NCBI GenBank assembly: GCA_016219025.1
Contig: JACRCM010000117.1
Span: 1 to 42,778 of the forward strand
Length of the DNA stretch: 42,778 bases
Direction of reading: 5' to 3'
From: Deltaproteobacteria bacterium
GTDB taxonomy: Bacteria; Desulfobacterota; GWC2-55-46
Below, piece after piece: positions 2,025 to 37,988 of the stretch. The translations under genes were made by a program, and so were the position numbers. The notes under the pieces were generated by a model. It saw only the letters and a list, made by a program, of their open reading frames with translations, was not told the origin of the DNA and did no database searches. How positions within the stretch are numbered: position 1 is the stretch's first letter; the number at the start of each line of letters is the position of its first letter.

Positions 2025-2041
2025 ATCCCGAGGTGCGTCTC

Positions 2042-2695: not shown

Positions 2696-3249
2696 TTAAG
2701 ACCCTGAGGACACCCTTTATAATAGCGGCGGTTCCGTTACTACTGCTCTCTTGCGATAATGGCGGCGGAGGCGGTAAGGCCGTAGGCACGAAGGCCGTGC
2801 AGAAAGAGGCGCCCAAGCCGCAGGAAGAGGCACCCAAGCCGGTGGAGGCCGTTGTAAAGCCCGATGAGCCGCTTAAAAATCCGTTCCTCAGCTATATCCT
2901 GATTAAAAAAGAGGCGATGGAGGAGATGAAGGTCATAAAAGGCCCGCTTGAGTGCTGTGAACTCGCGGCCTTCAAGGTCGCGGCGGCGGTGGTGGCCGGG
3001 AATAAGAGCTATGCCCTCGTGAGCGGACCCGACAATAAGAGGTATATCGTGAGGGCGGGCGACAAGATGGGCGTGAACAACGGCAAGATTACGGCGATAG
3101 ACACAGAGGGCATTACGGTAAGGGAGCAGACCAAGGACGCGGAAGGCAATATAGCCGCCTCTACGGATACCATGTTGAAGATATATCAGGATGACGGCGA
3201 GGGCGGAGGCAAGGGCGCGGCCAAAAGACCTCCAGCCGGTAAACGGTAA
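2692..3249 (+). CDS. pilP: Type IV pilus lipoprotein PilP
   Basis: PilP is an inner-membrane lipoprotein whose C-terminal beta-sandwich (HR domain) contacts the N-terminal domains of the PilQ secretin. The first 21 residues are a lipoprotein signal ending in the lipobox LLLSC, so Cys21 would be acylated. A Gly-rich and Pro/Lys/Glu-rich flexible linker follows (residues about 24-65). The conserved domain at about 65-175 contains NPFLSYI, LVSGPDNKRYIVRAGDKMG and the beta-strand pattern ITAIDTEGITVREQ. It is the fourth gene of the pil operon; a 187-bp gap with a tandem repeat separates it from pilQ. Confidence 0.93.
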   Translation: MIKTLRTPFIIAAVPLLLLSCDNGGGGGKAVGTKAVQKEAPKPQEEAPKPVEAVVKPDEPLKNPFLSYILIKKEAMEEMKVIKGPLECCELAAFKVAAAVVAGNKSYALVSGPDNKRYIVRAGDKMGVNNGKITAIDTEGITVREQTKDAEGNIAASTDTMLKIYQDDGEGGGKGAAKRPPAGKR

Positions 3250-3257
3250 GCCTCGAC

Positions 3258-3297
3258 GCCTATGCGCCTATGCGCCTATGCACCTATGCACCTATGC
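3258..3297 (+). repeat. Tandem octamer repeat, 5 copies, upstream of pilQ
   Basis: Five head-to-tail 8-bp units, three GCCTATGC followed by two ACCTATGC, start 8 bp after the pilP stop and end 139 bp before the pilQ ATG. The 8-bp period is not a multiple of three, so the array is not coding in origin. It lies in the only non-overlapping gap of the pil operon. Confidence 0.95.
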
Positions 3298-3436
3298 AAT
3301 CGACGCCGCGGGTCAGGCAAGAACAGTCCGGATTTTATGTCTCAGCGCAGGCTCGTCCGTTTTTGAGCGCGTTATCGGGTTAGTAAATGCCTCAGCCTCA
3401 GACAAAAGAAGTCTTCGCAATAATACGGAGGTCGTC

Positions 3437-6289
3437 ATGCACATATCGGGTATTAGTTTGAGGGCGGCGTTATCCTGCGCGGCCATATGCGGCGTTATGG
3501 CGTTTGCAGGCTGCGCCACGGTTGACACCGCCAAGCCCGGGGCTCCGGGCGCGGAGCAGCCGGGTAAACCGGCGTCCGCGACAGTGGAAAAGAAGGCCGC
3601 GGGAAAGATCGCGGTAGAGGGCATTCGCGTATCCGGCGACGGGGACAGGGTGATAGTAAACACCACCGGACCGGTCAAGTACACCGTCTTCAAGCTGAAC
3701 GACCCGTCGAGGTTGATTATCGACCTGCCCGGCGTAGACATGTCGCGCATAACCGGGCCGGTCATGGTGAATAACGACTACGTCAAGGAAATTACGGCGC
3801 AGTCCGGCACGGAAGGGATGAATATAGGCCGGGTCGTCATTGGTCTTAATCAGGGCATAGAGCACAAGGTCAGGGCGGGCGAGAATATGCTCCTCGTGAG
3901 CCTCACGAAGAACATTTACGTGCCCGACGAGGGAGCGGCCGCGCCAAAGGCCGCCGTTGCCGGCGTGGAAGCAATGGCGTCCCAGCCCGCCGGGGAGGAG
4001 GCCAAACCGGAAGCCAAACCAGAGGAAAAGACAGCGTCTCCCGCGGCAAAGATTGTCGGGATAGATTCAAAGGCGGTCAACGGGAATACCGTGATATCCG
4101 TAACGGCCGACGCAGCGGTGGGCAACTACAACGCATTTGTGCTTGACGGTCCGCCGAGGATAGTCATCGACGTATGGGGCGTCAAGAATTCCGTGGGCAA
4201 AGGCATGGTGAAGCTGAACGGAAAATATGCCAGGTCGGTGAGGCTTGGCACGTATCAGGACAAGGTCAGGCTTGTGGTGGATACCACGGAAAAGAAACTG
4301 CCGCCTTACGTTATAACCAAGGAAGGCAGCGCGCTTATGCTGAATATCGGACCGAACCCCGCGCCGCAGGCGCAGGCGTCGCCGACTGAGGCCCCCGCGG
4401 CGGTTGCCGCCAAGGCGGCTGAGCCTGCGGCGGTTGTAGCCGCGCCCCATGTCGAGGCGGCGCCTCAGGCAGCCGCGCCGGCGGCTCCGGTTGAGACGGC
4501 GGCGCCCGCCACGGCCCCCGAAGGCGCGAAGGTCACTATGGTTGACTACCGCAGCGTGAACGGCGGCGGAAGGTTGACCATAGCGCGGTCGAAAAAGACC
4601 GATTATACCGTGGTGGAATCACCGGACGGCAAGACCGTGACGTTCGATATAAAAGACGCCACTATCGTGGAGGATCAAAGAAGGACGCTTGACGCCACGA
4701 AGCTCAAGACGGCCGTAACCACGGTAAGCTCCTATCAGGAGAGCGATGCCCCGGCCAGCGGCGTGCGCGTCCTGGTCAAGCTCTCGGACAAGACCGGCTA
4801 CAAGGTCAACGAGGATAATGGGACTATAAGCGTGGAATTCGCCGCGCTGACCGCCGCGGCGCCAACGCCGGCGGCGGAGCAGACGGCAGAGCCGGTCGAT
4901 TACACGAAGGCAGTCGAATCCACCTCAGGCGAGGAGGCCAAGACCGATTCGAGCGGGAAGGCCAGGGTCTACGTCGGTAAAAAGATCGACATCGACATGG
5001 TAGACGCGTCCATTACCGACGTATTCAGGCTCCTGGCCGAGGTAAGCAACCTTAACATAATCGCCTCGGACGACGTAAAGGGTACCGTGTCGCTGCGCCT
5101 CAAGGAAGTCCCGTGGGATCAGGCGTTCGATATTATACTCAAGAGCAAGGACCTGGGCATTACGAGGGAGGGCGCGGTGATCCGGGTCGCGCCTGCGGAT
5201 AAGCTCCGCAAGGAGAGGGAGTCGGCCCTTGCCGCAAAGAAGGCGCAGGAGAAGCTCGAGACGCTGGAGATAAAGTTCATCCCGATAAATTATGCCGCCG
5301 CCGCCGATATCGAGCCTCACGTCAAGAAGGTGCTCTCGGAGCGCGGAGAAGTCACGAGCGAGAAACGCACCAATACTATCATCATTAAGGACGTCAAGAA
5401 GGGCATAAACGACGCGATTAAGGTGATAACCAGGCTCGACACCCCCATCCCGCAGGTCGAGATAGAGGCCCGGATAGTCGAGGCCGATTCCAGCTTCACG
5501 AGGGACTTGGGCATCCAGTGGGGCATCGATTCAAGGATACAGAACGACGGGGTCCGCATGAACACCATGGGCAGCACGACCCAGAACGGCCAGATGGCCA
5601 CGCAGCCTGCTCAGCAGCTGCTTCTCACCACTGACAAGGCGGATACCACGACGACGACAAGGGGCAAGGATTGGGTCATGGATACCGGCGTGACGAATTA
5701 CGCCGTTAATCTTCCCGCCGCCTCGACGCTCGGCGCGTTCGGACTCCTCTTCGGCAGGGCCGGCGGAAGCAATCCCTACCTCCTCGACCTCCGTCTATCC
5801 GCGGGCGAGACGACGGGACGCTTGAAGACGATATCGCGTCCGCGCGTAACCACGCTCGACAACAAGGAGGCGAAGATCGAACAGGGCGAGTCCATACCGT
5901 TCGAGACCACGTCCGCCTCGGGCACGTCTACCACGTTCATCGACGCGAACCTGAGCCTTACGGTTACGCCCCACATCACGCCTGACGGGAGCGTGCTCCT
6001 CAAGATAAAGGCGTCGAGGAACTCCATAGGCACATTCAGGACTTCTTCCGGCGCGCCGTCCATCAACAAGAAAGAGGCGTCCACCGAGGTGCTTGTGCTT
6101 AACGGGGAGACCACGGTCATAGGCGGCATAGTGGTGTCGGAGAAGAACGACAGCGAGCAGGGGATCCCGTATCTGAAGGACATCCCGGTCCTTGGATGGG
6201 TCTTCAAGAACAAGTCGATTTTAGACAGCCAGAAGGAACTCCTTATCTTCATCACGCCGACCATAATCAAGGAAAAGGCCGCGGCCTGA
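3437..6289 (+). CDS. pilQ: Type IV pilus secretin PilQ with three AMIN-like domains and a lipobox
   Basis: PilQ is the outer-membrane ring through which the pilus is extruded. The open frame continues upstream to 3191, but ATG at 3437 is chosen. GGAG lies 6 nt before it, the protein then begins with a signal peptide, and the upstream part only reads through the octamer repeat. The signal ends FAGC, so Cys26 would make PilQ a lipoprotein. Domains in order: AMIN-like units near residues 55-140, 200-300 and 370-465, separated by Ala/Pro-rich linkers; STN (N0) at about 514-575; N1 (KH-like) at about 610-670; and the secretin barrel at about 675-945, with [20 protein letters not shown] and the late VIGGIV motif. 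The length is 950 residues. A strong intrinsic terminator follows, closing the pil operon. Confidence 0.95.
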
Positions 6290-16090: not shown

Positions 16091-16190
16091 GAGGCGTTGA
16101 AGACAGCGGTCTCTGAGTATGGGAGGCTGGGCTCATAAAGCAGTTTTATTCAACGGCCCTTGGCGGACGCTGTCGAAGGAGGTGCGCGAA

Positions 16191-17570
16191 ATGACGGCAG
16201 AGCAGCGCGAGGTGGAAGGTTCGCTTTACTCTTATGAAGACAATATCCTGCCTCGTGTTGAACCCATAGCCGATCGCGTTTACGCGCTCCGCAGCGCTGG
16301 CGCTCTCACGTCCGACGTACTCTATAGATTGCGGCAGTATTTCAAGATCAAGAATATATACAACTCGAACGCAATCGAAGGCAACCTGCTTGATATCGGC
16401 GAAACAAGGCAGGTAGTAGAAGTTGGGCTGACAATCTCAGGCAAATCACTTAAAGATCAGGCTGAAGCAAAAAATCTTGCCGCGGCAGTGGACTTTCTTG
16501 AAGAACTTGTAAGAGACGTTTCCCGTCCCATCATGGAGAGCGATATACGCCAGATACACGGCCTGATCCTCAAAGGCATTGATGACGATAATGCAGGCCG
16601 GTACAGGACTGAACCGGTTGAAATATCCGGCTCAAGCTATAAACCGCCCGGGCCGGAAAAGGTGCCCGGCGACATGGCCTCTTTGGGGAGTTGGTTGTCG
16701 GTAAAAAGCTGCCCAGGCGACCGCTTCAGCACGGTAGACGGGATGCTGAACGCGGCGGCCGCACATGCGTGGCTGGTCTACGTGCATCCCTTCAAGGATG
16801 GCAACGGCCGCACTGCGCGTTTATTGATGAATCTATTCCTTATGCGTTACGGCTTCCCCATAGCGGTTGTTCTGCGTGAAGACCGCCTTAGATACTATGA
16901 GGCCCTTGAGATTTCGCAGAGCTCGGACCTTACGCCCTTTATCGATCTGATTTCGGAATGCGTTGTCGAGAGTTTGGATGAGTATGAGGCCGCGGCGCGC
17001 GAGCACCGCGAGACCGTTGAATGGGCGCGTTCGCTCGCGCAGAGATTCAGCGAACAGGAGTTAAGGAGGGTCAGCAATCATTATGAGATATGGAAAAACG
17101 CGATGGAACTGTCGAAGAGTTATATGCGGGATGCGGCTATGCTCATAGACGGTTCGGCGTCATTGGCCAGGGTATATTTCAAGGACTTCGGCACGCTGGA
17201 TTTTGAAAAGTATCTGTCCCTGCGGCAGGCGGAATCAGCCAAAAAAACGTGGTTTTTCAGGATGGATTTTTGCCGTGGAGAGCGTTCGGTGCGTTATCTG
17301 TTCTTCTTCGGATATAGAAGCCACATACTGCGCGACCGTTGCCACGTCACCCTGCATATCGCCAGAGAGGAACCGCAAGGGTCGTATCACTTCGAGCGTC
17401 TCGCCAACCTGAACCAGACAAACGCGCCGAATCTGGCCGAAGTAGGTTATGACTCAAAGGCCGAGCGGTTCGTAGCAAGGTTGAAAAGCGATCAGACCAA
17501 GACGGGTAAGATTGAGGAACTGGGCCGGACATTCTTCGAGGATGTCATGCGGCTGCATTTTTCTTCGTAG
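16191..17570 (+). CDS. Fic-domain protein (AMP-transferase) with N-terminal inhibitory helix
   Basis: Fic proteins transfer AMP or another phosphate-containing group from a nucleotide to hydroxyl side chains. The catalytic loop HPFKDGNGRTAR begins at His199 and matches the full HPFx(D/E)GNGRxxR consensus, so activity is expected. SNAIEGN at residues 59-65 matches the [S/T]xxxE[G/N] inhibitory helix placed N-terminally (class II), with Glu63 expected to block ATP. The C-terminal 200 residues are an accessory region of unknown role. The frame opens at 16119, but ATG 16191 follows a strong GGAGGT at 7 nt and starts MTAEQREVEG. The gene is visibly richer in A and T and less biased in codon use than its neighbours, which suggests acquisition. 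No antitoxin gene is next to it. Length 459 residues. Confidence 0.9.
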   Translation: MTAEQREVEGSLYSYEDNILPRVEPIADRVYALRSAGALTSDVLYRLRQYFKIKNIYNSNAIEGNLLDIGETRQVVEVGLTISGKSLKDQAEAKNLAAAVDFLEELVRDVSRPIMESDIRQIHGLILKGIDDDNAGRYRTEPVEISGSSYKPPGPEKVPGDMASLGSWLSVKSCPGDRFSTVDGMLNAAAAHAWLVYVHPFKDGNGRTARLLMNLFLMRYGFPIAVVLREDRLRYYEALEISQSSDLTPFIDLISECVVESLDEYEAAAREHRETVEWARSLAQRFSEQELRRVSNHYEIWKNAMELSKSYMRDAAMLIDGSASLARVYFKDFGTLDFEKYLSLRQAESAKKTWFFRMDFCRGERSVRYLFFFGYRSHILRDRCHVTLHIAREEPQGSYHFERLANLNQTNAPNLAEVGYDSKAERFVARLKSDQTKTGKIEELGRTFFEDVMRLHFSS

Positions 17571-27265: not shown

Positions 27266-28459
27266 ATGTTGCGTAAACGCGGACGCGGATTGGATATCTT
27301 ACGTTATTGTATGCTCATTGCGGCCCTCTCCCTTTTGACCGGGCGCGGCGCGTATGCCGTAGATGCGGATGGGCGGAAAACCATAGATTCCACGGGCTAC
27401 GCCGTCATCTACGGGGACAATGCCCTCGTGGCGCGGGACGCGGCCATTGCCGACGCCCTGCGCAAGGCAGTGGAGCAATCCGTCGGCACGCTCGTCTCCT
27501 CCGATACCCTCGTATCCGACTATCAGGTGCTCTCGGATAACGTCTACACCAAGAGCCAGGGTTACGTGAAGGAGTACAAGGTGATACGGGAGGGCCAGGC
27601 ACAGAACATGTATCAGGCCACGGTCACGGCGGTCGTGGCGATGGGCGATATAAAAAACGACCTCGACGCCCTTGGGCTGTTGATGGTGAAGGTGGAGAAG
27701 CCGAGGGTGCTCTTCCTCATAACCGAGAAGGGGCTTGGGATATATAACGACACGCTCCGCTCCGCCGGCTCCGAGGCCGACGTGCCTGCCGCCGAGTCCA
27801 CGCTTAAAGAGGCGTTCCTGAAGAAGGGTTTTAATATCATAGACGTATCCGCATCGACCGGCAAGATCGACGCCGGGGGAGGCTCGATATCCTCCGGGCT
27901 TTCAAACGACGCGGCGCGCAGGATAGGGCGCGGCCTCAACGCCGAGATAGTCGTAAGGGGCAAGGCCGTGGCGAGGGAGGGGCAGAGGATATCTGCGTCT
28001 CAGGTGGGCGTCTATCTCGCCGACATAACGGCGGACGTTGTAAGGGTGGACGACGGGACGGTCCTTGCGAGCGCCAAGGGGCACGGCGCGGCGCGGAACA
28101 TCTCTGCTGCGTCAGGGGGTGTCGATGCGCTCTCAAAGGCCGCCGACGAGATTGCGGACAGGCTCATCGACCAGATAACCGCCAAGTGGACGAGCGGCAA
28201 CATGGTGACCATAAGGGTCGCCGGGCTTGCCGACTACAGGAAGGCCGCGGACTTCAGGAACCTCCTCAAGAAGCAGGTGCGCGGGGTGACAAACGTATAC
28301 CAAAGGCGGTTTGAGGACGGCACGGCCGTATTCGACATGGATGTCAAGGCCACGGCTCAGGCCATAGCCGACGACCTTGCAAGAGTTCCGGGCGCCCCGG
28401 TGAAGATAACCGGCACCACGCAAAACACCATAGAGGCCGTCTTCCAGGGGCCGCAGTGA
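27266..28459 (+). CDS. Exported FlgT-like protein (FlgT N-terminal and CsgG-like domains)
   Basis: The frame opens at 27176, but ATG 27266 gives a proper signal peptide (basic start MLRKRGRG, hydrophobic LIAALSLLTG, cleavage after AYA) and 397 residues. Residues about 30-140 match the FlgT N-terminal pattern: SIGYAV-like strand, AVIYGDNALVARDAAIADAL, then a GYVKEYKVIREGQ strand. Residues about 145-290 (KPRVLFLITEKGLG, LNAEIVVRGKAVA) resemble the ABD-type domain of FlgT and CsgG, which binds at the periplasmic side of the outer membrane. In Vibrio FlgT belongs to the flagellar H ring. There is no flagellar gene in this window, so the local role is open. TATAAT sits 7 bp before the ATG without a -35 box. 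The stop overlaps the next gene by 4 bp (GTGA). Confidence 0.72.
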   Translation: MLRKRGRGLDILRYCMLIAALSLLTGRGAYAVDADGRKTIDSTGYAVIYGDNALVARDAAIADALRKAVEQSVGTLVSSDTLVSDYQVLSDNVYTKSQGYVKEYKVIREGQAQNMYQATVTAVVAMGDIKNDLDALGLLMVKVEKPRVLFLITEKGLGIYNDTLRSAGSEADVPAAESTLKEAFLKKGFNIIDVSASTGKIDAGGGSISSGLSNDAARRIGRGLNAEIVVRGKAVAREGQRISASQVGVYLADITADVVRVDDGTVLASAKGHGAARNISAASGGVDALSKAADEIADRLIDQITAKWTSGNMVTIRVAGLADYRKAADFRNLLKKQVRGVTNVYQRRFEDGTAVFDMDVKATAQAIADDLARVPGAPVKITGTTQNTIEAVFQGPQ

Positions 28460-29241
28460 GGGAGAGCGGTTTGGTTACGGCTGCGGGCGTTGGGCGCGCA
28501 AACGGAGGTTGGCGGTTCTTTCTGCTCCTGTGCGGCATCGCGGTCTTGCTCTCGGCCTGCGCCGGGGTGGATAGGAAGGATGATGACGCGAGGTTCGCGC
28601 ACTCGGTGGCCGCGCTCCCTCTCTACAACGCCACGAACGACGTGGAAGGCCCTCGGATGGTGCGCGATCAGGCCGCCGGACGCATGAAGCGCCTGCGCTA
28701 CAGGAATATGCCGGTAAAGGACGTTGATCTGGCGCTGCGCGACCGTCTGGGAATAACGCTGGGTTCTCAACTCGACCTGGCGACGCCTCAGGAGCTCGGC
28801 GCTGAACTGGGGGTTGATTATCTGCTATACGGGTATCTGCTGGACTTCGATACCATAACCACCGGCATCTATAACGTGAATAAGGTGAGGGCGGCCTTCA
28901 AGCTCGTCGAGGCCAAGTCCGGGCGCGTCGTATGGTCGAGGGCCGGCGGCGTAAGGAACGAGATACACAGCGCTGGCGAGGCGGGCGTCGGCATAGCCGC
29001 CCTGATCCATGCGGCTGACAAAGGGGATGCCGAGCTATACAAGACCATACCCGGGCTGGAGGGCATACCCGGACTCACGGACTGGAAGACCGGGTACAGC
29101 GAGCACGAGAAGTCCGTCGGGACGGCCGCGCTCTTTTCGCTCGGCGAGCAGCTCGTCACACAGGCCCTCGGCGTCCACCTATACATCGAGTCCTACGACA
29201 TGCTCGATAGGATAATGGGGGACTTCCCGCGAGGGGAGTAG
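28456..29241 (+). CDS. GNA1162-like (DUF799) outer-membrane lipoprotein
   Basis: The 261-residue protein has a long N-terminal region and a lipobox LLSAC with Cys35 as acylation site. The start is GTG, overlapping the previous stop. The C-terminal part follows the GNA1162/DUF799 pattern: SVAALPLYNATND, a helix with DLALRDRLGITLGSQL, ELGVDYLLYGYLLDFDTI, then AAFKLVEAKSGRVVWSRAGG, where the protein states Leu-Val-(D/E)-x-K-x-G-x-x-(L/V)-W. This family is commonly encoded beside csgG in small operons, as here. Its biochemical role is not known. The assignment rests on the motif pattern and context rather than on high identity. Confidence 0.7.
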   Translation: MRESGLVTAAGVGRANGGWRFFLLLCGIAVLLSACAGVDRKDDDARFAHSVAALPLYNATNDVEGPRMVRDQAAGRMKRLRYRNMPVKDVDLALRDRLGITLGSQLDLATPQELGAELGVDYLLYGYLLDFDTITTGIYNVNKVRAAFKLVEAKSGRVVWSRAGGVRNEIHSAGEAGVGIAALIHAADKGDAELYKTIPGLEGIPGLTDWKTGYSEHEKSVGTAALFSLGEQLVTQALGVHLYIESYDMLDRIMGDFPRGE

Positions 29242-29289
29242 GGGGGCGTTAGGCCAGTTGTCAGTGAAGGATAAAAACGCATTTTTACC

Positions 29290-29331
29290 GATTACCGATA
29301 GCTGATAACTGATAACGGATAACCGATAACC
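29290..29331 (+). repeat. GATAACC-type heptamer array, 6 units, upstream of the CsgG-like gene
   Basis: Six uninterrupted 7-bp units (GATTACC, GATAGCT, GATAACT, GATAACG, GATAACC, GATAACC) are followed directly by TATCAAGGAG, the ribosome site of the CsgG-like gene at 29350. The later units are closer to consensus. Confidence 0.93.
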
Positions 29332-29349
29332 TATCAAGGAGCATCCGGC

Positions 29350-30315
29350 ATGACCATTAAAAAAATCTTCGCAAGCCTTGCGTCTTTCGCGGCGCTATCA
29401 TTTTTCATGGCGGCCACCACGTCATGCTCGCCGACGACGACCGGCTCGGTAAAGGAGGACGTCTCCATCACCGGCCGGACTGAAAAACTTGAAGAGGCCG
29501 GGGTTCAGTATCGCGGGCCTGAATACAACGTCGCCATACTCCAATTCACCAATAAGACGCCGTCCCGCGCGCTTGGGTTGGGGGAGGCGGCCACGGACGT
29601 GCTCCGCACCATCGTCAAGAAATCCGGGCTTGAGCCGATAAGCATCACCGTGGACGAGCTCAGGCAGCAGGAGAAGATGATCGCCCTCCAGCAGTCCGGC
29701 GCGGTCAAGACCGGCAGGAAGAACGCCGCCGAGGGGTTCGAGTCGATAGACTTGCGCATCTCCGGGGCCGTGACTTCGTATGCCGAGCTTGAGGAAGGCT
29801 CCAACGTCCTCGTGGCGCAGAGCAAGACTCAGGTGGCGAGGGTTCAGGTGGACTACGCGCTCGTTGACGTGGCCACCGGCAGGAGCCTCGTTGCCGAGTC
29901 CGGCATGGGCGAATACAGGAAAAAGACCGGCGGCGTGCTCGGGCTCGGCTCAAAGTCCACCGCCGACGTGGGCCTGCGCGAGGGCGCGCTCCGGGACGCC
30001 CTGACCAAGGCCATGACGAGGATGGTCGAGAAGCTCAATCAGATGCCGTTTCAGGGCCGCGTCCTCGCGGTGGAAGGCTCGACCATCGTAGTGAAGGCGG
30101 GCACGAGGTCAAGGTTGCCTGAAGGCACGGTCTTCGACGTGCTCCGCTCAGGACAGGATTTGGTCGACCCGGACACTGGAAGGGTGATAGGCAAGCGGGA
30201 GAAGAAGATAGGCGAGATTATGCTGACCAACCACCAGACGGAGAAGATATCCGAGGCGTCCGTAAAGTCCGGCGCGGGGTTTGAAGCCGGGGATGTCATA
30301 AGACAGGCCAGGTAG
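29350..30315 (+). CDS. CsgG/HfaB-family lipoprotein
   Basis: The 321-residue lipoprotein has a signal peptide ending TTSC (Cys26). The CsgG core follows: YNVAILQFTNKT, LGLGEAATDVLRTIVKKSG, then the ADR-like strand pattern IDLRISGAVTSYAEL, VQVDYALVDVATGRSL and a helical segment with LREGALRDALTKAM. CsgG forms a ring-shaped pore for curli subunits in the outer membrane; relatives such as HfaB serve holdfast attachment. The C-terminal 90 residues (VLAVEGSTIVVKAG, LPEGTVFDVLR) resemble the extra C-terminal domain of some relatives. No curli csgA, csgB, csgE or csgF is seen. AAGGAG 7-11 nt before ATG makes the start certain. It lies between the GNA1162-like and TPR/SLH genes. Confidence 0.82.
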   Translation: MTIKKIFASLASFAALSFFMAATTSCSPTTTGSVKEDVSITGRTEKLEEAGVQYRGPEYNVAILQFTNKTPSRALGLGEAATDVLRTIVKKSGLEPISITVDELRQQEKMIALQQSGAVKTGRKNAAEGFESIDLRISGAVTSYAELEEGSNVLVAQSKTQVARVQVDYALVDVATGRSLVAESGMGEYRKKTGGVLGLGSKSTADVGLREGALRDALTKAMTRMVEKLNQMPFQGRVLAVEGSTIVVKAGTRSRLPEGTVFDVLRSGQDLVDPDTGRVIGKREKKIGEIMLTNHQTEKISEASVKSGAGFEAGDVIRQAR

Positions 30316-30367
30316 GGCATTGCGAGACGACGGGGTTAGCCGTTTTGGCGTTGCGAGGCGCGAAGAG

Positions 30368-30395
30368 GTTATCGGTTATCAGTTATCGGTTACCG
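30368..30395 (-). repeat. Inverted heptamer array (GTTATCG), 4 units
   Basis: GTTATCG, GTTATCA, GTTATCG and GTTACCG run head to tail; they are reverse complements of the GATAACC heptamer. An array in direct orientation lies at 30424-30444, so the pair can form a long stem. Degenerate fragments of a 'cattgcgag...gcgaag' type repeat occur just before (30318-30366). Confidence 0.88.
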
Positions 30396-30423
30396 GTGAA
30401 TGGTAAAAGAACATGTCTTTATC

Positions 30424-30444
30424 TTTAACCGATAACCGATAACC
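30424..30444 (+). repeat. Heptamer array (GATAACC), 3 units
   Basis: TTTAACC, GATAACC, GATAACC followed by GAT. It is the partner of the inverted array 30368-30395; together they form an imperfect stem-loop with a 28-bp spacer in the gap before the TPR/SLH gene. Confidence 0.85.
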
Positions 30445-30518
30445 GATTTTCGAGAGGCGCGTCAGAGGCGTTGGTGGTTTACGGCGGACGTGAAAATCAA
30501 ATAAAGGAGGTCGCAAAC

Positions 30519-31745
30519 GTGGCGAAGATAATAAGGTTTCCGGTGGTTTTGGTGGCGTTGCTCCTGCTCATATCGGCGGGGTGCGCCAAGCACGTCTCCA
30601 AGTGCACGAGCCCGGAGGACAACCCGCAGCATCATTACCTTCTGGGCATGGGACTGCTTGAGAAGGGCGACGTAACCGGGGCGGAGGACAAGTTCCAGAG
30701 GGCGATAACCTGCGAGGAGGGCTTCGGCCCGGCCTACGCCGGCGTCTCCCTCGTCAACACGGAAAAGGCCATAGCCCGGTACAAGGCGCAGAAGGACGCG
30801 GCGCACATGAAGGTCGACGTAGACCGCGCGATGGAGTCTCTTGAGGCGAGCGCGAAGAACGCAAAGGACGACGAGGACACGTTCGCGTACCACGTGGCGG
30901 TCATAAGGGTCGATACGGCCCTCAAGCCCGGCAAGTGGCTCGACGACGCGGAGGAGCATTACAAGGCCGCGATGAAGCTCAAGGTAGACGACAGGAAGCT
31001 CCTCTACTACGACGGCAGGGAGGCCGCCATGTACTTCATGGGCAGGGCCTACCTTGAAGGCAAGGCGTTTCAGGCCGCGAGGGACAGGTTTGCGGACGTG
31101 ATAGGCGAGAAGACCTCCAGCAAGTGGGCGCCTCTGGCGGAGAAGCAATGGAACAGGACGGATAAAATAGTAAGGGCGATGGCCGGGATAACCGTCGGGG
31201 ACGTCGGCAAGACCATAGCGGCTCAGGGTATGGTCAGCCGCGCGGACATGGCCGCCCTTTTAATCGACGAGCTCAAGATAGACAAGCTATTCGCCGGGCG
31301 CATCCCGGTGGAGTCGCGCTTGGCCAAGATGAAGGCGGATTTTACGCCCGCCGACACGCTTGCGTCCCCGTTCAAGGACGAGATACTGACGCTCATGAAG
31401 TGGGGGGTGCGCGGGCTTGAGCCGGTCTACGACGAGCAGACGAGGGCGTATATGTTCAGGCCCGACAACATGGTCACAAGGAAGGAGTTCGCCCTTGTTC
31501 TGGAGGACGTGCTCATAAAGCTCATGGGCGACGATAAGCTCGCCACCGCCTATTTCGGCCAGGACAAGTCGCCGTTCCCGGACGTGGCGGCCTCGGCGGC
31601 CTGGTACAACGCGGTAATGAACGTGGTCACGAGGAGCATCATGGAGACGGAGCTTTCCGGCGAATTCAGGCCGGACGCGATGGTTGACGGCGCGGAGGCC
31701 ATACTCGCCATAAGAGTCCTGCGCCATCGGCTCAATATTAATTAG
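30519..31745 (+). CDS. TPR lipoprotein with S-layer homology (SLH) domains
   Basis: The frame opens at 30471, but GTG 30519 stands behind AAAGGAGGT at 7 nt and gives a lipoprotein signal (MAKIIRFPVVLVALLLLISAGC, that is a basic start, hydrophobic core and lipobox SAGC, Cys22). Residues about 35-210 are TPR-like (YLLGMGLLEKGDVTGAEDKF). Residues about 235-405 hold SLH-like units, for example VSRADMAALLIDEL, FRPDNMVTRKEFALVLEDVL and FPDVAASAAWYNAVMNVVTR with FRPDAMVDGAEAILAI. SLH domains bind peptidoglycan-linked polymers, so this lipoprotein may tie the outer membrane to the wall. Inference: a tether or anchor for the neighbouring envelope proteins. Length 408 residues. Confidence 0.85.
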   Translation: MAKIIRFPVVLVALLLLISAGCAKHVSKCTSPEDNPQHHYLLGMGLLEKGDVTGAEDKFQRAITCEEGFGPAYAGVSLVNTEKAIARYKAQKDAAHMKVDVDRAMESLEASAKNAKDDEDTFAYHVAVIRVDTALKPGKWLDDAEEHYKAAMKLKVDDRKLLYYDGREAAMYFMGRAYLEGKAFQAARDRFADVIGEKTSSKWAPLAEKQWNRTDKIVRAMAGITVGDVGKTIAAQGMVSRADMAALLIDELKIDKLFAGRIPVESRLAKMKADFTPADTLASPFKDEILTLMKWGVRGLEPVYDEQTRAYMFRPDNMVTRKEFALVLEDVLIKLMGDDKLATAYFGQDKSPFPDVAASAAWYNAVMNVVTRSIMETELSGEFRPDAMVDGAEAILAIRVLRHRLNIN

Positions 31746-31750
31746 AGACC

Positions 31751-31771
31751 GTTAACCGGCAACCGATAACC
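31751..31771 (+). repeat. Heptamer array, 3 units, upstream of the LPP20-like gene
   Basis: GTTAACC, GGCAACC and GATAACC lie directly before GATCAAGGAG, the ribosome site of the gene at 31789. The junction of repeat and ribosome site matches that at 29331. Confidence 0.85.
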
Positions 31772-31788
31772 GATCAAGGAGACGACTG

Positions 31789-32640
31789 ATGAAAAAACTC
31801 ATATTCATACCGCTGTTCGTGCTGCTCTTCGCGGTCTCGGCCATAGCCGAGACCGACATGCCGCAGGAGGTGAGGGACACCAGGCATGCGCTCATGACCG
31901 GCTCGCTCGTGGTCAAGGGCGAGGGCGCGGCCCCGCAGGACAGGCCGCTTTCCCCGGCGCAGAAGCGCATCATGGCCTTGCGCGCCGCCAAGATAATGGC
32001 CGCGAGGGAATTGTCCGAGGTCGTCGACGGCATCTCCATAAGCGGCGAGACCACGGTGGTCAACGCGGCGGCCGCCTCGGATACGATAAAGTCGTCGGTG
32101 CAGGGCCTGATAAAGGGCGCGCAGGTCGTAAAAGAGGTCTACGACCCGGTGAGCGAGATGGCCGTGGTCTATCTCTCCATGCCGATGACCGGCTCGAACG
32201 GGCTCGTGGCGTCGATACTGCCGCAGGTGCTGATGTCCGCGCCTCCAGCCGCGGCCCCGCCCTATATGCCGCCGCCTACCGCGCCCGAGGTCAAGCCCGC
32301 GGCCTTTGACGGATTGATACTTGACGCGCGCGAGCAGGCGTTCAAGCCCGCGCTGATAAACCGGGTTGTAACGAAGGGCGGAGAGGTGCTCTACGACCCG
32401 GCGAAGGTCGCGCAGAACATCCTCGTGGAGAGGGGCGCCGCCGAGTACACGAACGACGTGGGCAAGGCCAAGGCGCTCCTCGGCGAGCGCGGCGCGTCCA
32501 ACCCGGCGGTGGTCAAGGTCAGCGGGGTGATAAAGTCCACGGACGTCGAGGTCTCGCCGGAGGACGCGAGCGCGATATTCTCCTCCAACCAGACCGCGCA
32601 TTATCTCGAAGGCGCGAAGGTCGTATTCGTGCTCAAGTAA
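31789..32640 (+). CDS. Exported LPP20-like protein
   Basis: A 283-residue secreted or periplasmic protein: MKKLIFIPLFVLLFAVSAIA is a classical Sec signal (cleavage after AIA) without a lipobox Cys. Residues about 35-120 carry the LPP20/FlgP-type pattern: the helix AQKRIMALRAAKIMAARELS (family A..A...A...L), ETTVVNAAAASDTIKSSVQ, and GAQVVKEVYDP followed by VVYLSMPM. A Pro/Ala-rich loop follows (APPAAAPPYMPPP), then a less defined C-terminal part. FlgP, an outer-membrane lipoprotein of the H ring, belongs to this fold. It is the last of five envelope genes; the repeat island follows. AAGGAG precedes the ATG. Confidence 0.8.
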   Translation: MKKLIFIPLFVLLFAVSAIAETDMPQEVRDTRHALMTGSLVVKGEGAAPQDRPLSPAQKRIMALRAAKIMAARELSEVVDGISISGETTVVNAAAASDTIKSSVQGLIKGAQVVKEVYDPVSEMAVVYLSMPMTGSNGLVASILPQVLMSAPPAAAPPYMPPPTAPEVKPAAFDGLILDAREQAFKPALINRVVTKGGEVLYDPAKVAQNILVERGAAEYTNDVGKAKALLGERGASNPAVVKVSGVIKSTDVEVSPEDASAIFSSNQTAHYLEGAKVVFVLK

Positions 32641-32647
32641 ACGTTAG

Positions 32648-32758
32648 CAGGTTGCTGAAAAATGCCTTTTCCGTCATTGCGAGGAGTAAGACGTTATCGG
32701 TGACCGGCAACCGATAACCTGTTCGCAATGACGGCATTTTGAGTTTTTCAGCAACCTG
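32648..32758. mobile_element. MITE-like 111-bp element with nested inverted repeats
   Basis: The ends CAGGTTGCTGAAAAA (32648-32662) and TTTTTCAGCAACCTG (32744-32758) are perfect inverted repeats. Inside, CCGTCATTGCGA (32671-32682) pairs with TCGCAATGACGG (32723-32734), and in the centre a heptamer palindrome GTTATCGGT/ACCGATAAC (32693-32718) forms the tip. TTAG flanks both ends (32644-32647 and 32759-32762) and may be a target duplication. No transposase is encoded. Confidence 0.75.
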
Positions 32759-32791
32759 TTAGAGGAAAGGCCGCGCGAAAACCGCATACGT

Positions 32792-32841
32792 ATCCAGAGG
32801 GGTTTCAGCCCGGTCCCGCCGGCCCTCTGGATGCGTCTTTT
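32792..32841 (+). terminator. Terminator-like stem in the repeat island
   Basis: ATCCAGAGGG (32792-32801) pairs with CCCTCTGGAT (32823-32832) across a 21-nt loop, followed by GCGTCTTTTT. It could end transcription of the envelope cluster about 190 bp after its last stop; alternatively it is another dispersed palindrome. Confidence 0.5.
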
Positions 32842-33060
32842 TGGGGCGGTCTCCGGGTGGATGGTTTTTGCTAAAGGGAGCCGTAGGGCGGGCTGTGCCC
32901 ACCATTTGCACGAACGCGGGTTGATGGCAGGGTTGCTTTGTAAATAGAGCTGCTTTGTAACTTTTGGCGGGCGCAGCCCACTCAAAACCCCTTCCCCCGC
33001 CTTTGGGGGGAAGGAAGGGATGGGGGGGCGGTTGGGGCAACCCCCCACCCCCCGCCTAAA

Positions 33061-33091
33061 CGATTTACAGATAGAGCTACTTTGTAAATCG
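33061..33091. repeat. Copy of a short dispersed repeat, palindromic ends
   Basis: CGATTTACA (33061-33069) and TGTAAATCG (33083-33091) flank a core ATAGAGCTACT. A second copy in inverse orientation lies at 33270-33292 (22 of 23 positions identical to 33068-33090), and a diverged copy at 32937-32960 with ATAGAGCTGCTTTGTAA. Confidence 0.8.
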
Positions 33092-33197
33092 TAGCCTTAT
33101 GCGGGGGTAGGTTCAACCCTCCCCCAAAAAGCGGGGGAAGGAGGTTTTTGATTGACAGGCGAGACAGTATCTACAATACTTAGGCAGAAATCGTGTT

Positions 33198-33303
33198 TGT
33201 CATTCCCGAGGACTTTTATCGGGAATCCATCGCTTCCGGGGATGCAAAAACTCTGGATTCCCGCTTAAAGATTTACAAAGTAGCTCTATTTGCGGGAATG
33301 ACA
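33198..33303. mobile_element. 106-bp MITE-like element with TGTCATTCCCG ends
   Basis: TGTCATTCCCG (33198-33208) and CGGGAATGACA (33293-33303) are perfect 11-bp terminal inverted repeats. Inside are a further ATTCCCG/CGGGAAT pair (33202-33208 and 33220-33226), GGATTCCCG, and the inverted copy of the short repeat (33270-33292). The ends resemble the widespread 'gtcattcccgc...gcgggaatgac' palindrome class. It reads open into mlaE but is not part of it. Confidence 0.75.
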
Positions 33304-33393
33304 GGATGGCTACGTTGCATTACTTATACAGAAGTCAATAATCAGAGGTTCCTAAACCGTCCACCGATAACCGTTTTACCGGCAAAGGCCGCG

Positions 33394-34179
33394 ATGGAAA
33401 TCTTCAGGCATATCGGGGCGCTCGCCCTGGGGCGCGTGCATGACGCGGCGGGCGTCTGGAGGATAATAGGCGGCGCGGTAGCATCGCCCCTCGTCAAGTT
33501 CAGGAAAGGGAGGCGCGTCTTCTGGGACGTGCTCCTGCGCCAAGTCTATTTCACGGGCCTCGAGGCCGTGCCCATCATCTCGTGGATAGCCCTCATACTC
33601 GGTTTTATCGTCGTGGCGCAGGCGCTCTCCATACTCCCCAAGCTCGGCGGGGCTTCGCTCGTCGGCGAGATACTGGTATGGGTCGTCGTCAGGGAGGCCG
33701 GGCCTGTGTTCGCCGCCGTAATCGTCATCGCCAGGAGCGGCACGGCCATAGCCGCCGAACTGGGGAGCATGAAGATAAACAACGAGCTGACGGCGCTTGA
33801 ACTCATGGGCATCGACCCGGTCTATTACCTCGTCGTGCCCAGGGTGCTCGGCACGGCGGTGAGCGTCTTCGTCCTTACTTTTTACTTCGAGGCTGTATCC
33901 ATCCTTGGCGGGTTTCTACTGGCGGGCTTCGGCGGCAGCGTTACGTTTTACGCCTATTCGTCGAGCATACTCGACGCGATGGGGCTCGTCGAGGCGTCGG
34001 TCTCCATTCTAAAGAGCGTGCTCTTCGGGCTCATAATAGGCGCGGTATGCTCGTATCAGGGGTTGCAGGCCGAACGGAGCATCACGCAGATACCGCAGAA
34101 GACCACCAGGGCCGTCATACGGAGCCTTACGTCGGTCTTTTTTCTGGACGCGGTCATAACGTCGATATTTTATATGTGA
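33394..34179 (+). CDS. mlaE: Mla/MCE lipid-transport ABC permease (MlaE family)
   Basis: MlaE is the inner-membrane permease of the phospholipid transport system, with five to six hydrophobic segments. The sequence matches the family throughout: VYFTGLEAVPIISWIALILG, VAQALSILPKLGGASLVG, EAGPVFAAVIVIARSGTAIAAELGSMKINNELTALELMGIDP and LVVPRVLGTAVSVF; ARSG...AELGSM is the usual signature. ATG 33394 gives 261 residues, the standard length; the longer frame to 33193 reads through the MITE-like element and is not coding. The ribosome site is weak (AAAGG). The ATPase-like gene starts 79 bp later. Confidence 0.94.
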   Translation: MEIFRHIGALALGRVHDAAGVWRIIGGAVASPLVKFRKGRRVFWDVLLRQVYFTGLEAVPIISWIALILGFIVVAQALSILPKLGGASLVGEILVWVVVREAGPVFAAVIVIARSGTAIAAELGSMKINNELTALELMGIDPVYYLVVPRVLGTAVSVFVLTFYFEAVSILGGFLLAGFGGSVTFYAYSSSILDAMGLVEASVSILKSVLFGLIIGAVCSYQGLQAERSITQIPQKTTRAVIRSLTSVFFLDAVITSIFYM

Positions 34180-34258
34180 GGCGCGGCAAAGGCGCTGATG
34201 CGTGAAATGCAGATTCTTTTGCGTATCACACATCACGCGCGCGTCACGAACTATAACC

Positions 34259-34939
34259 ATGTCAACCCTGATAGAGCTAAGAGACGTGTCCGAGCGCGGC
34301 GAGGACGGGCGTATGGTCTTCGACGGCGTAAGCCTCGAGTTGCGCGGCGGGGAGAGGGTCTTTCTGACCGCCCCGCCCGGCTCAGGCAAGGGACTCCTGC
34401 TCCGCTGGATGGCGGGGATATCCATGCCGGAGAAGGGGACGGTATGCGTCTTCGGCAAGGATACGGCCAGGTTGAGCGCCGGCGTTTTGAACGCAATGCG
34501 TTGCAGGATGGGGCTCCTCGTGCTCAACAACGTCCTGATAAGCAATCTGAAGGTCATAGAGAACTGCGCGTTGCCGCTCCTCTACCATACGGAGATGCCA
34601 TATAAAGAGGCGATGGAAAAGGCGGGCGGGCTCCTCTCGCGCTCGGGGTTTACCGGCGACCCGTGGGAATTGCCCGGCCCTTTGCCCATGTATGTGAAAA
34701 AACAGGTGGCCATCGCCAGGGCGCTCGCCCTTGATCCGGAGGTGGTAATCTGCGAAAACATGGGCGAGGGGCTGACCGAGGCGGATAAGGAACATCTCTT
34801 CGGCCTGTTGCTCGGCTGGCACGGCGGCGCGCCCTCGAGGCTCCTCCTCGCAACCTCGGCCGAGGCGGCGGACGCGGCCCTCATCAACCCCGGCAGGCGT
34901 CTGCGCATCGCAGGCGCCGGGATAGCCGAGGCGCATTGA
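34259..34939 (+). CDS. MlaF-like ABC protein with degenerate ATPase motifs
   Basis: By position and overall fold pattern this is the ATP-binding subunit of the Mla transporter, but the catalytic motifs are damaged. The Walker A loop reads APPGSGKGLL: the Lys is there, the following Ser/Thr is Gly. The Q-loop Gln is Leu (MGLLVLNNVLIS). The signature motif LSGGQ is lost (LPGPLPMYVKKQ). Walker B is VVICENMGEGL, with the Asp changed to Cys while the Glu stays. The switch His is missing (LLLATSAEA). The reading frame is intact for 226 residues, with normal codon use, so it is not a simple pseudogene. The frame opens upstream at 34202; ATG 34259 gives the family N-terminus MSTLIELRDVS. Confidence in the family is high, in ATPase activity low. 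Confidence 0.8.
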   Translation: MSTLIELRDVSERGEDGRMVFDGVSLELRGGERVFLTAPPGSGKGLLLRWMAGISMPEKGTVCVFGKDTARLSAGVLNAMRCRMGLLVLNNVLISNLKVIENCALPLLYHTEMPYKEAMEKAGGLLSRSGFTGDPWELPGPLPMYVKKQVAIARALALDPEVVICENMGEGLTEADKEHLFGLLLGWHGGAPSRLLLATSAEAADAALINPGRRLRIAGAGIAEAH

Positions 34940-34951
34940 ACGGATAACTCT

Positions 34952-35950
34952 ATGGATAAGATAACCGGCAAGGACGCGAGATTCCGGGGGCTTGAGGTCA
35001 AGGTGGGCATACTGGTCGCCTCGGCGGTCGCCGGCATGGCCGTCATCATCATCCTCATCGGCATCCAGAAGGACATCTTTACCCATAAGTATCACATCTC
35101 CTTCACCTCGGAGTCAGGGGCGGGGTTCAACGAAGGAATGCCGGTAAAGCTCTCAGGCTTCAAGATAGGCAGGATACAGAAGATCGAGCTGACCGACGCG
35201 GCCCGCGTCAAGGTGACCCTTGAGATAAACAGGAAGTATGAGCAATGGGTGCGCAACAACTCCTTCGCGCGCATGGGCAAGGAAGGGCTTATAGGCGACA
35301 CGTTCATCGAGATCGCGCTCGGCGGGCCGGGCGGGAATATGTTGAAGGACGGAGACGAGATATCATATTACAAGACCGGCGGCATGGAGGAGCTGGTGGC
35401 CGAGGCAAAGCCGATACTGAACGAGGTCAAGGACATCATCCATTACGTGAACGACCCGAAGGGCGACCTGAAGGCGTCGATAGCCAACATCAGGGAGTTC
35501 ACCGCCGAACTCAAGGAGACGAGGAGGTCGATCGACAGGACGGTGAAGGACGCGGACGCGGCCATCGTGCAGGCCAAGGCCCTTATCTCCGGCATGGACG
35601 CGAAGACCGGCCCGGTCATCGCGTCGGTGGCAAGGGTGGTTGGCAGCCTTGAGGCCGTCACGCGGAGGGTGGACGGTATCCTTGAGAAGACCAACTCGAC
35701 CGCCGAGAAACTCGACGGCGCGATGGACGGCGTAAAGACGCTGACCGGCGCGCTCGCTCAGGATACGCCCAAGATACGCGGCCTCATAGAGAACGCCTCT
35801 CTTGCCGCCTCCGAGGGAAAGGGTCTGATAAAGGGCGTCAAGGCGGGCTGGGTCGGCAGGCTCACGGCCCCGCCCCCGCAAGAGGCCCCGGCCCTCATTC
35901 CGCTCGATGCGTATCCCAGAAGACCGCCGGCACCGGAGGCGGCTAAGTGA
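34952..35950 (+). CDS. mlaD: MCE-domain substrate-binding protein (MlaD family)
   Basis: MlaD-type proteins sit in the inner membrane and form hexameric rings that pass lipids. One membrane segment lies at residues about 16-40 (VKVGILVASAVAGMAVIIIL). The MCE domain follows at about 45-130, with YHISFTSESGAGFNEGMPVK, LSGFKIGRIQKIELTD and IGDTFIEIALG. Residues about 140-300 form a long helical coiled-coil region rich in E, K and A; a short Pro-rich tail ends the protein. The length of 332 residues is above E. coli MlaD (183) and closer to longer MCE proteins. It starts 12 bp after the mlaF-like gene and overlaps the next gene by 4 bp. Confidence 0.92.
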   Translation: MDKITGKDARFRGLEVKVGILVASAVAGMAVIIILIGIQKDIFTHKYHISFTSESGAGFNEGMPVKLSGFKIGRIQKIELTDAARVKVTLEINRKYEQWVRNNSFARMGKEGLIGDTFIEIALGGPGGNMLKDGDEISYYKTGGMEELVAEAKPILNEVKDIIHYVNDPKGDLKASIANIREFTAELKETRRSIDRTVKDADAAIVQAKALISGMDAKTGPVIASVARVVGSLEAVTRRVDGILEKTNSTAEKLDGAMDGVKTLTGALAQDTPKIRGLIENASLAASEGKGLIKGVKAGWVGRLTAPPPQEAPALIPLDAYPRRPPAPEAAK

Positions 35951-36882
35951 CGCGGTCTGCATATATAGGGGCGGCCTTCGCCATCGCGTTTCTTCTGGCC
36001 CTGACAGGGTGCGCCTCCGTCGATAAGAACGCCGATGCGCCTGAAGCGGGCAGGATCGCCGGACTCAGGGCCGAGGGCGTTGAGGCCGCGGTGGCGGGCG
36101 ATGCCGCCCGCTCCCGCGCCGCGTTCGCTTCGGCGCTCAAGTCGGACCGGGCGATTGACAACAGGGGCGGGGAGGTCGTGGACCTTATAAACCTCGGCAG
36201 GGTTTCGCTCGCTTTGGGCGACGTTGAAGGGGCGAAGGGATACTCAGGCGAGGCCGTCTCTCTCGCCTCCGCGCTTGGCGATGTCAAGGACCTCTCCGAG
36301 GCATACGCCACGCTTGCAAAGGCGGAATATGCGTCTGGCGGCATCGATGGCGCCGGGAGCGCCATCAGGCACATCGACATGGCGCTGTCATTGGACAAGC
36401 GCGACAGGGCGGGCGATGGCGCTAAGATGAACGTAAAGGGCGGCGCGCTCATCGCCGCGGGCAGGGCAGTAGAGGCCGAGGCTGTCTTGAACGAGGCGCT
36501 CAAGTCGAACCTTGAAGGCCGCGACGCGATGGAGACGGGCAATTCGTACAGGGCTCTGGCCGGGACGCGCGTCCTCGGCGGACGGGACGGCGACGCGCTG
36601 GCCGATTACCGGAAGGCGTATGAATACGACCGCGCCATCGGGGCGGGCGCCAAGATAGCCGCCGACCTCCGCGCGATAGCCGCGCTTCAGATGAAGGCCG
36701 GGCAAACCGCCGAGGCGGGGTTTTCCCTCAAGCGGCTCTATGCCGTGGCGGACGCAGGCAATCTTACGGACGAGGCGCTCTTCGCCCTCGATAATCTCAT
36801 CAAGCTGCGGGAGGGCGGAGCTGACGCGGAGGACTTCTATCGCAAGCGCAGGGATGAACTCCTGAAGGGTATGCGGAAATGA
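35947..36882 (+). CDS. TPR-like lipoprotein in the mla operon
   Basis: This lipoprotein has a signal peptide ending LTGC (Cys22). The 311 residues are mostly alpha-helical with TPR-like repeats: DLINLGRVSLALGDVEGAKG, AYATLAKAEYASGGIDGAGS, and SYRALAGTRVLGGRDGDALADY. It begins with GTG overlapping the mlaD stop and ends with an ATGA overlap into the kinase, so it is translationally tied to both. Its role is unknown. It may be the auxiliary lipoprotein of this transport system, or a periplasmic input to the kinase. No MlaC-like domain is seen. Confidence 0.78.
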   Translation: MTRSAYIGAAFAIAFLLALTGCASVDKNADAPEAGRIAGLRAEGVEAAVAGDAARSRAAFASALKSDRAIDNRGGEVVDLINLGRVSLALGDVEGAKGYSGEAVSLASALGDVKDLSEAYATLAKAEYASGGIDGAGSAIRHIDMALSLDKRDRAGDGAKMNVKGGALIAAGRAVEAEAVLNEALKSNLEGRDAMETGNSYRALAGTRVLGGRDGDALADYRKAYEYDRAIGAGAKIAADLRAIAALQMKAGQTAEAGFSLKRLYAVADAGNLTDEALFALDNLIKLREGGADAEDFYRKRRDELLKGMRK

Positions 36883-37988
36883 AGCCAAGGGTGCTCGTAG
36901 TCGACGACGAAGAGATGAACGCGATCCTGCTCTCCACGAAGTTTGAGCGCGCGGGCTACGAGGTGGAGCGCGCAAAGGACGGCTTCGAGGCGCTCCAGAA
37001 GGTCTCTGTCTTCCACCCGGACATCGTGCTCCTCGACGTGATGATGCCGAGGATGGACGGGTATGAGGCGCTCCGGAGGCTCAAGTCAAAGGAGGAGACG
37101 CGCTACATCCCGGTCATAATGCTAACCGGCAAGGCCGACGTGGAGGACAAGGTCATGGGCCTGGAGGTTGGCGCGGAGGATTACATCAGCAAGCCCTACA
37201 GCCTTCAGGAGGTTGCGGCCAGGGTCAAGTCGCTCCTCAGGATGCGCTCCCTCCAGACGCGGCTGCGCGAGACGGAGAAGATGGCCGCGCTGGGCGAGAT
37301 GGTCGACGGGATAGCGCACGAGATAAGGAACCCGCTCACCGCCATAGGCGGCATGGCCAGGCGGCTCCATGAGCACGAAACCGACCCTCAGCACAGGGAG
37401 TACGCCGACCGGATAATCAAGTCCGTCGAGCGTCTTGAGCGGATGCTCCAGCGGGTCGACGAGTACAAGAAGATACTCGTATCCACGCTCAGGCCTGGCG
37501 ACATAAACGGCGTCATTGCGGATGCCGCGCGCGACGCCGCCGAGTTCATAGAGAATGAGGGCAAGGAGATAACGGTAAAGACCGACCTCATGGAACGCCC
37601 GCCGCTGCTGAACCTCGACGCAGGGAACCTCCGCGTGGCCATATTCAACGTCCTTCAGAACTCCGTGGAGGCCATCGAGAAAAAAGGCGAGATAAGGATA
37701 GAGACCAGGCCGGCCTTTGACCAGACCTTCGTACTCAGGGTCTCGGACAACGGGATAGGGATAGAGAAGGACTCCCTCCGCAATATATTCAACCCGTTCC
37801 AGACCTCCAAGTTCCAGGGCGCCGGGCTCGGCCTTACCATCACCTACAGGATAATCCACGACCACGGCGGCGAGATAACGGTCGAGAGCGCGCCGGGCAA
37901 GGGCACGGTGGTGACGATGAGGTTCCATCCGGTAAAGGCGGTGGTGGCCGCGGGGGCAAGGGCAGGGCAGCAGGGCGCGCGTTATTAA
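36879..37988 (+). CDS. Response regulator / histidine kinase fusion (REC-HisKA-HATPase)
   Basis: The 369-residue soluble protein joins an N-terminal receiver to a kinase core. REC occupies residues about 1-118: VVDDEEMNA holds the acidic pair, LLDVMMPRMDGYEAL the phospho-acceptor Asp, MLTGKA the Thr region and ISKPYS the Lys. HisKA follows, with ALGEMVDGIAHEIRNPLTAI giving the phospho-accepting His in an HEIRNPL box. HATPase_c (about 225-355) has QNSVEAIEKKGEI (N box), VSDNGIGIE (G1) and GAGLGLTITYRII (G2). There is no membrane or sensor domain, so its input must be a partner that phosphorylates the REC, or a cytoplasmic signal. It is translationally coupled to the TPR lipoprotein by a 4-bp overlap. 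No DNA-binding output domain is present. Confidence 0.93.
   Translation: MKPRVLVVDDEEMNAILLSTKFERAGYEVERAKDGFEALQKVSVFHPDIVLLDVMMPRMDGYEALRRLKSKEETRYIPVIMLTGKADVEDKVMGLEVGAEDYISKPYSLQEVAARVKSLLRMRSLQTRLRETEKMAALGEMVDGIAHEIRNPLTAIGGMARRLHEHETDPQHREYADRIIKSVERLERMLQRVDEYKKILVSTLRPGDINGVIADAARDAAEFIENEGKEITVKTDLMERPPLLNLDAGNLRVAIFNVLQNSVEAIEKKGEIRIETRPAFDQTFVLRVSDNGIGIEKDSLRNIFNPFQTSKFQGAGLGLTITYRIIHDHGGEITVESAPGKGTVVTMRFHPVKAVVAAGARAGQQGARY

Follow-up and report, generated by a model that had tools for sequence, protein, structure and literature searches.

The 42,778-nucleotide contig JACRCM010000117.1 from a Deltaproteobacteria bacterium (assembly GCA_016219025.1; the whole stretch is hereafter the window) carries at 27266-32640 five adjacent genes on the + strand, g1-g5, whose products are all exported. 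This cassette probably builds an undescribed envelope scaffold and not a part of a flagellum. In our favoured reading, to which we give a probability of roughly one half, its products form a periplasmic ring or scaffold associated with the outer membrane, that draws on the domain families of the flagellar basal disk and H ring, is fastened to the cell wall through SLH repeats and works without any flagellum. An earlier note on this DNA had described five consecutive, exported + strand genes here, and all five open reading frames were recovered with their signal peptides or lipoboxes:

g1, 27266-28459, + strand: exported protein with a FlgT_N domain (SHS2-type N-domain, weak LptE-like middle); signal peptide without lipobox
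g2, 28456-29241, + strand: GNA1162-like lipoprotein; GTG start; lipobox LSAC
g3, 29350-30315, + strand: CsgG-like lipoprotein with a C-terminal FlgT_C/TsaP-like domain; lipobox TTSC
g4, 30519-31745, + strand: lipoprotein; TPR-like repeats at the N-terminus, three SLH repeats at the C-terminus; lipobox SAGC
g5, 31789-32640, + strand: exported protein of the LPP20/FlgP family with an extra C-terminal domain; no lipobox

The start of g2 lies over the stop of g1 (4-nucleotide overlap), and gaps of 108, 203 and 43 nucleotides separate g2-g3, g3-g4 and g4-g5, respectively. The GTG start codon of g4 is preceded by AAGGAGG. The lipobox pattern was found in none of 23 g5 orthologues and, in a loose form, in only 3 of 22 g1 orthologues; g1 and g5 have no lipobox, which is why they are classed as signal-peptide proteins and not as predicted lipoproteins.

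Profiles support all five family assignments as sequence-based predictions, with g5 the weakest. The g1 sequence scores slightly below the Pfam FlgT_N cut-off (E = 2.2e-5; 25.3 bits against 28.8), and FlgT_N is matched by all 22 g1 orthologues (best 3e-10). g1 also matches NCBIfam LipL46 at 6.7e-14, yet far below that model's cut-off, gives a weak LptE match in the Pfam scan and, as a profile, weakly matches the FlgP structure 9hmf (7e-4). g2 lies above the cut-off of Pfam PF05643 (GNA1162-like; 3.6e-8, 33.6 bits against 25.9), and its profile matches the solved GNA1162 structure 4hrv at 5.5e-11. g3 likewise exceeds the Pfam CsgG cut-off (7.7e-5; 22.5 bits against 20.8); CsgG is matched by 25 of 26 orthologues at E<=0.1, and the C-terminal third of g3 matches TsaP (6ve2) at 1.2e-5. 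As modelled by AlphaFold2 and compared with Foldseek, g3 is structurally nearest to flagellar FlgT (8z5n chain 0 and 3w1e; ~1e-14) and second to CsgG (4uv2, 1.6e-9), with GNA1162, PelC and LptE/DUF330-type lipoproteins among the lower matches.

For g4, Pfam SLH is matched at 9.4e-16 over three stretches, and the TPR match is weak. The arginine of the TRAE motif is invariant across 25 sequences in SLH repeats 1 and 2 (R242 and R322); repeat 3 is without it. A single g5 sequence reaches only 0.11 against LPP20, below threshold, and an assignment on that basis was rejected; it was rescued only by the family profile of pooled orthologues, which matches Campylobacter jejuni FlgP (9hmf) at 6.8e-15 and Vibrio FlgP (8z5n) at 6e-10. 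LPP20 itself is matched by 16 of 23 g5 orthologues. The g5 model also resembles Treponema Tp0624 (1e-8), a likeness that the model's low confidence makes a lead only; the D1-D2 tandem unit of Tp0624 has no assigned function (PMC5104382). The FlgT-, CsgG-, GNA1162- and LPP20/FlgP-like assignments, of which the earlier note had named the first two as open to refutation, were thus upheld in both profile and structure searches.

The distribution of the cassette was followed in 59 related genomes and in a phylum-wide sample of 297 genomes. A single-copy g3 orthologue occurs in 45 of the 59 relatives, 53-81% identical (56-81% where full length). Among the loci read, g1-g5 stand in the same order in ~21 distinct metagenome-assembled genomes (MAGs) of the class; the flanking genes are also syntenic within the class, so that synteny at this level is by itself weak evidence. 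In seven genomes of the distant families f31 and f51, all five genes remain adjacent as g5-g4-g1-g2-g3, among quite different genes. Phylum-wide, g4 is present in 56 of the 297 genomes; g5 lies <1 kb from it in 37 of these 56 (17 families) and within 5 kb in 4 more. The g4-g5 pair has a g1-like gene beside it in families f64, f50 and f60, and a CsgG lipoprotein as well in the first two of these; at locus L112, where both stand beside g4-g5, the CsgG lipoprotein also has FlgT_C. Five genomes of the sister family f4 (G032, G039, G041, G045 and G047) retain the flanks, namely a sulfate adenylyltransferase or pilin-like pair, the barrel gene and the kinase, and lack all five genes. Because order is kept within the class, linkage survives reordering in distant families and the block is absent where the flanks are kept, the five genes are a real unit; the same neighbourhood in other genomes, which the earlier note had asked to be looked for, thus exists.

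The cassette is independent of flagella. FlgI, the flagellar P-ring gene, was not found in the cassette's own genome (86.8% complete) and is absent from 14 of the 45 g3 carriers (this genome and 13 others), several of which are 97-100% complete. It is present in 31 of 45 carriers and 8 of 14 non-carriers (Fisher p=0.52), and across the phylum g4 is unrelated to FlgI (p=0.45). In the flagellated carriers G003 and G006, cassette and FlgI share a contig but are widely separated, by ~458 kb and ~91 kb, respectively. The occurrence of the set without flagellar genes, as first suggested from the window's sequence, is borne out by these counts.

The SLH protein stands out for its exclusivity. Of the 59 relatives, 40 yielded exactly one SLH match each, which was always g4, and the 14 that lack g3 yielded none (Fisher p=9e-10). 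The other five have g3 but no SLH match; at least one of them, G016, has a g4 whose SLH part falls below threshold, and G007 has no g4. By sequence, g4 is the sole predicted SLH protein detected in the own and related genomes. The proposed membership of an SLH lipoprotein therefore stands for most carriers, where it is constant and the only SLH protein, and fails for some partial sets (G007). A role for g4 as the sole membrane tether was ruled out, since OmpA/Pal-type domains occur in 58 of the 59 relatives; for the same reason g4 adds to the usual tethers and replaces none. Most of the named relatives were deposited under Deltaproteobacteria. As the SLH porin OmpM has been described as missing from Gracilicutes (PMC10628300), an SLH lipoprotein in these lineages is unusual. 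Binding of the g4 SLH repeats to the cell wall is putative.

In Vibrio, FlgT and FlgO are parts of the H ring, which requires the lipoprotein FlgP (PMC6504787), while in C. jejuni the basal disk is formed by FlgP (PMC12222027). We favour a flagellum-independent ring or scaffold because the parts of the cassette are related to FlgT and FlgP, which form rings at the outer membrane's inner face. In such an assembly, the lipoproteins g2 and g3 would occupy the inner leaflet of the outer membrane, and the SHS2-domain proteins g1 and g5 would assemble onto them, in the manner of FlgT and FlgP at the LP ring of flagella. The TPR part of g4 would bind the assembly and its three SLH repeats the cell wall, so that the resulting structure would rivet the outer membrane to the peptidoglycan. 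Most likely the scaffold would either brace the outer membrane round some envelope-crossing machine or act as a local, stand-alone membrane-wall rivet.

The type IV pilus may be the braced machine, a candidate because PilM is found in every related genome tested. The window itself contains, at 343-6289 and ~21 kb upstream of the cassette, the type IV pilus genes pilM, pilN and pilP and a secretin with three AMIN domains.

Several points weigh against the scaffold. We infer its physical complex, as we do its ring geometry and its biological role. The g3 and g5 models are of medium confidence, with pLDDT values (predicted local distance difference test) of 68 and 67, respectively. Partial sets occur: g2, g3 and g5 without g1 and g4 at L143 (G007), g2-g3 alone in the f39 genomes, and g1-g2-g3 alone in the Nitrospirota-labelled MAG L065. 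Co-occurrence with the type IV pilus was set aside as evidence, as PilM is present in all 59 relatives, whether they carry the cassette or not, and neither supports nor refutes a link.

The cassette has features in common with several known systems. The Vibrio flagellar H ring shares the FlgT N-domain with g1, the FlgT middle and C-terminal fold with g3 and the FlgP family with g5, again as exported envelope parts. In contrast to that ring, the cassette has no link to flagellar genes, includes SLH and GNA1162-like lipoproteins and splits the FlgT domains over two proteins, and its g5 is not a predicted lipoprotein, whereas FlgP is. It is not classed as an H ring because flagellum co-occurrence and FlgP lipidation were both tested and both failed. 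The basal disk of Campylobacter and Helicobacter (FlgP, Lpp20) resembles it through the g5 profile match to C. jejuni FlgP; however, the own genome is without FlgI, and g5 has an extra C-terminal domain and no lipobox.

The curli channel CsgG shares its domain and lipobox with g3, which differs in its C-terminal FlgT_C/TsaP-like domain and in the near absence of CsgF from the relatives; its membrane hairpins are putative. GNA1162 (DUF799) and CsgG form a small operon of the Neisseria type. The adjoining lipoproteins g2 and g3 recall this pair, but they belong to a larger FlgT-, FlgP- and SLH-type set, and its DUF4810 partner was not among the genes scanned. TsaP, the secretin-associated protein of the type IV pilus, is matched by the C-terminal domain of g3; unlike TsaP, g3 has no LysM domain, and the putative wall binder here is the SLH protein g4. 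OmpM-type tethers also place SLH repeats on a protein attached to the outer membrane, with putative wall binding. However, g4 has a lipid anchor and a TPR part in place of a beta-barrel in the same chain, and, with OmpM reported to be absent from Gracilicutes (PMC10628300), the cassette MAGs are mostly deposited as Deltaproteobacteria and also carry OmpA/Pal-type domains. Our literature search found no paper on this five-gene set, and the FlgT, FlgP and LPP20 papers it returned were flagellar or pathogen-antigen work. In that search a single paper mentioned both GNA1162 and CsgG, each of them once. The families are known; their combination, its flagellum independence and an SLH lipoprotein as a regular member appear to be new.

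The genes that follow the cassette bear on the first alternative, namely that the cassette supplies the outer-membrane and periplasmic side of an MCE/Mla lipid transport system, in which g1-g5 and a barrel would carry lipid or receive it from MlaEFD and take the place of MlaA and MlaC. Downstream of g5 lie:

32641-33192, no strand: site of a ~250-amino-acid outer-membrane barrel gene in relatives; here repeat-rich DNA without a barrel gene
33193-36882, + strand: MlaE, MlaF, MlaD and a TPR lipoprotein (Pfam); syntenic in most of the class, separable from the cassette

MlaE-MlaF-MlaD, the TPR lipoprotein and a response-regulator/histidine kinase follow g5 in most class genomes (33193-37988 in the window), and no MlaA, MlaB or MlaC was seen in the stretch of the window scanned. 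The weak LptE match of g1 and the LptE/DUF330 lipoproteins among the fold matches of g3 point the same way, and in Helicobacter pylori, where the Mla system is without MlaA and MlaC, the barrier is protected by an outer-membrane ring protein of the flagellum (PMC11756786). However, MlaE is not beside the cassette in L046, L048, L143 and L144, in genera g6 and g7 or in the distant families f31, f51, f64, f50 and f60, which led us to reject Mla as a fixed partner, and no lipid-transport role is known for FlgP- or SLH-type proteins. We regard a lipid-transport role as unlikely.

In most relatives the ~250-amino-acid beta-barrel gene follows g5 (OMP_b-brl matched in 8 of 22, best 6e-5). It was not detected in the own genome, and in cassette-free f4 genomes it still adjoins the kinase; we therefore rejected it as an obligatory sixth part and count it as a frequent neighbour only. 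The earlier note, right about the five-gene cluster, had missed this site. Short TTATCGGTTATC / GATAACCGATAACC repeats occur in both orientations in the intergenic DNA after g2, g3, g4 and g5 (29281-29341, 30363-30454, 31748-31781, 32688-32724 and 33350-33377), and 17-23-nucleotide repeats (AGAGCTACTTTGTAAAT) lie close by at 32929-33292. The first ~55 residues of the MlaE reading frame (33193-33380) run through repeat DNA, within which the listed frame seems to start, so that the true MlaE start is probably further downstream.

A second alternative takes g3, with g2, as a CsgG-type outer-membrane secretion pore for an adhesin or fibre subunit, with the other proteins accessory or anchoring. 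The g3 score above the Pfam CsgG cut-off, its Foldseek match to CsgG and the long strands in its medium-confidence model at the positions of the first CsgG hairpin are consistent with this proposal. However, the nearest fold of g3 is FlgT, its alignment to Escherichia coli CsgG does not reach the second membrane hairpin, and its strand segments are charge-rich, with no clear lipid face; for these reasons a CsgG-type pore is less likely than a scaffold, and we consider it improbable. CsgF was found in 1 of 59 relatives and not in the own genome, no CsgE or CsgA was noticed in the loci read (no genome-wide search for them was made), and no conserved cargo gene was seen in the neighbourhood. The absence of curli genes suggested by the earlier note thus holds almost everywhere, the single CsgF aside, while its proposal of an export device gained no positive support.

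That the five are unrelated envelope genes with separate jobs, neighbours through conserved synteny only, would fit the wider synteny of the region in the class (M20 peptidase, Mla, kinase). It is made very unlikely by their staying together after relocation and reordering among other neighbours in distant families, and by their joint loss from sister-family genomes that retain the flanks. Least probable of all is a true flagellar accessory (H-ring) locus, left as a relic where the flagellum was lost: the domain content is like that of Vibrio FlgT, FlgO and FlgP and most g3 carriers have FlgI, but neither sample shows an association, the cassette lies far from FlgI, and in several families genomes without FlgI keep its genes intact and conserved.

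Further genes related to the cassette or close to it were noted. At L038, L040, L042, L043 and L044, a prepilin-like gene (GFTVLELLFVM...) lies between the M20 peptidase gene and g1, in most of them together with a small membrane-protein gene; neither gene is present in the window. A second module lies beside or near the cassette at L094, L107, L112 and L047 and consists of a g1 paralogue, a ~662-amino-acid TPR lipoprotein (with a CsgG domain in L112) and a ~765-amino-acid protein (with fn3 and a weak CsgG match in L094). GNA1162-like matches occur within ~840-920-amino-acid proteins adjoining or near g5 (L122:4374-7106, L125, L126 and L131), and the L122 protein joins this domain to a right-handed beta-helix/NosD-type region. 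The own genome has two more CsgG-domain proteins, on contigs C137 and C167 (L001 and L002; frames of 470 and 664 amino acids), which outscore g3 on the CsgG model. Elsewhere in the window, a Fic/DOC-family protein (16119-17570; Fic 5.7e-21) lies between a TPR protein and a tRNA nucleotidyltransferase.

A broader proposal, which we hold as speculative, is that lineages of the Deltaproteobacteria type, flagellated or not, possess a self-standing outer-membrane ring machine anchored by SLH repeats and encoded by the cassette, and that the FlgT and FlgP parts of H rings and basal disks in flagella derive from a general envelope module of this kind and were not invented for the flagellum. To the question of how the accessory rings of high-torque flagellar motors arose, the cassette contributes a relative outside the flagellum whose partner genes are linked. 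The cassette further puts an SLH-type link between membrane and wall in lineages deposited as Deltaproteobacteria, despite the reported absence of OmpM from Gracilicutes. The linked gene set provides a concrete list of candidate co-purifying proteins.

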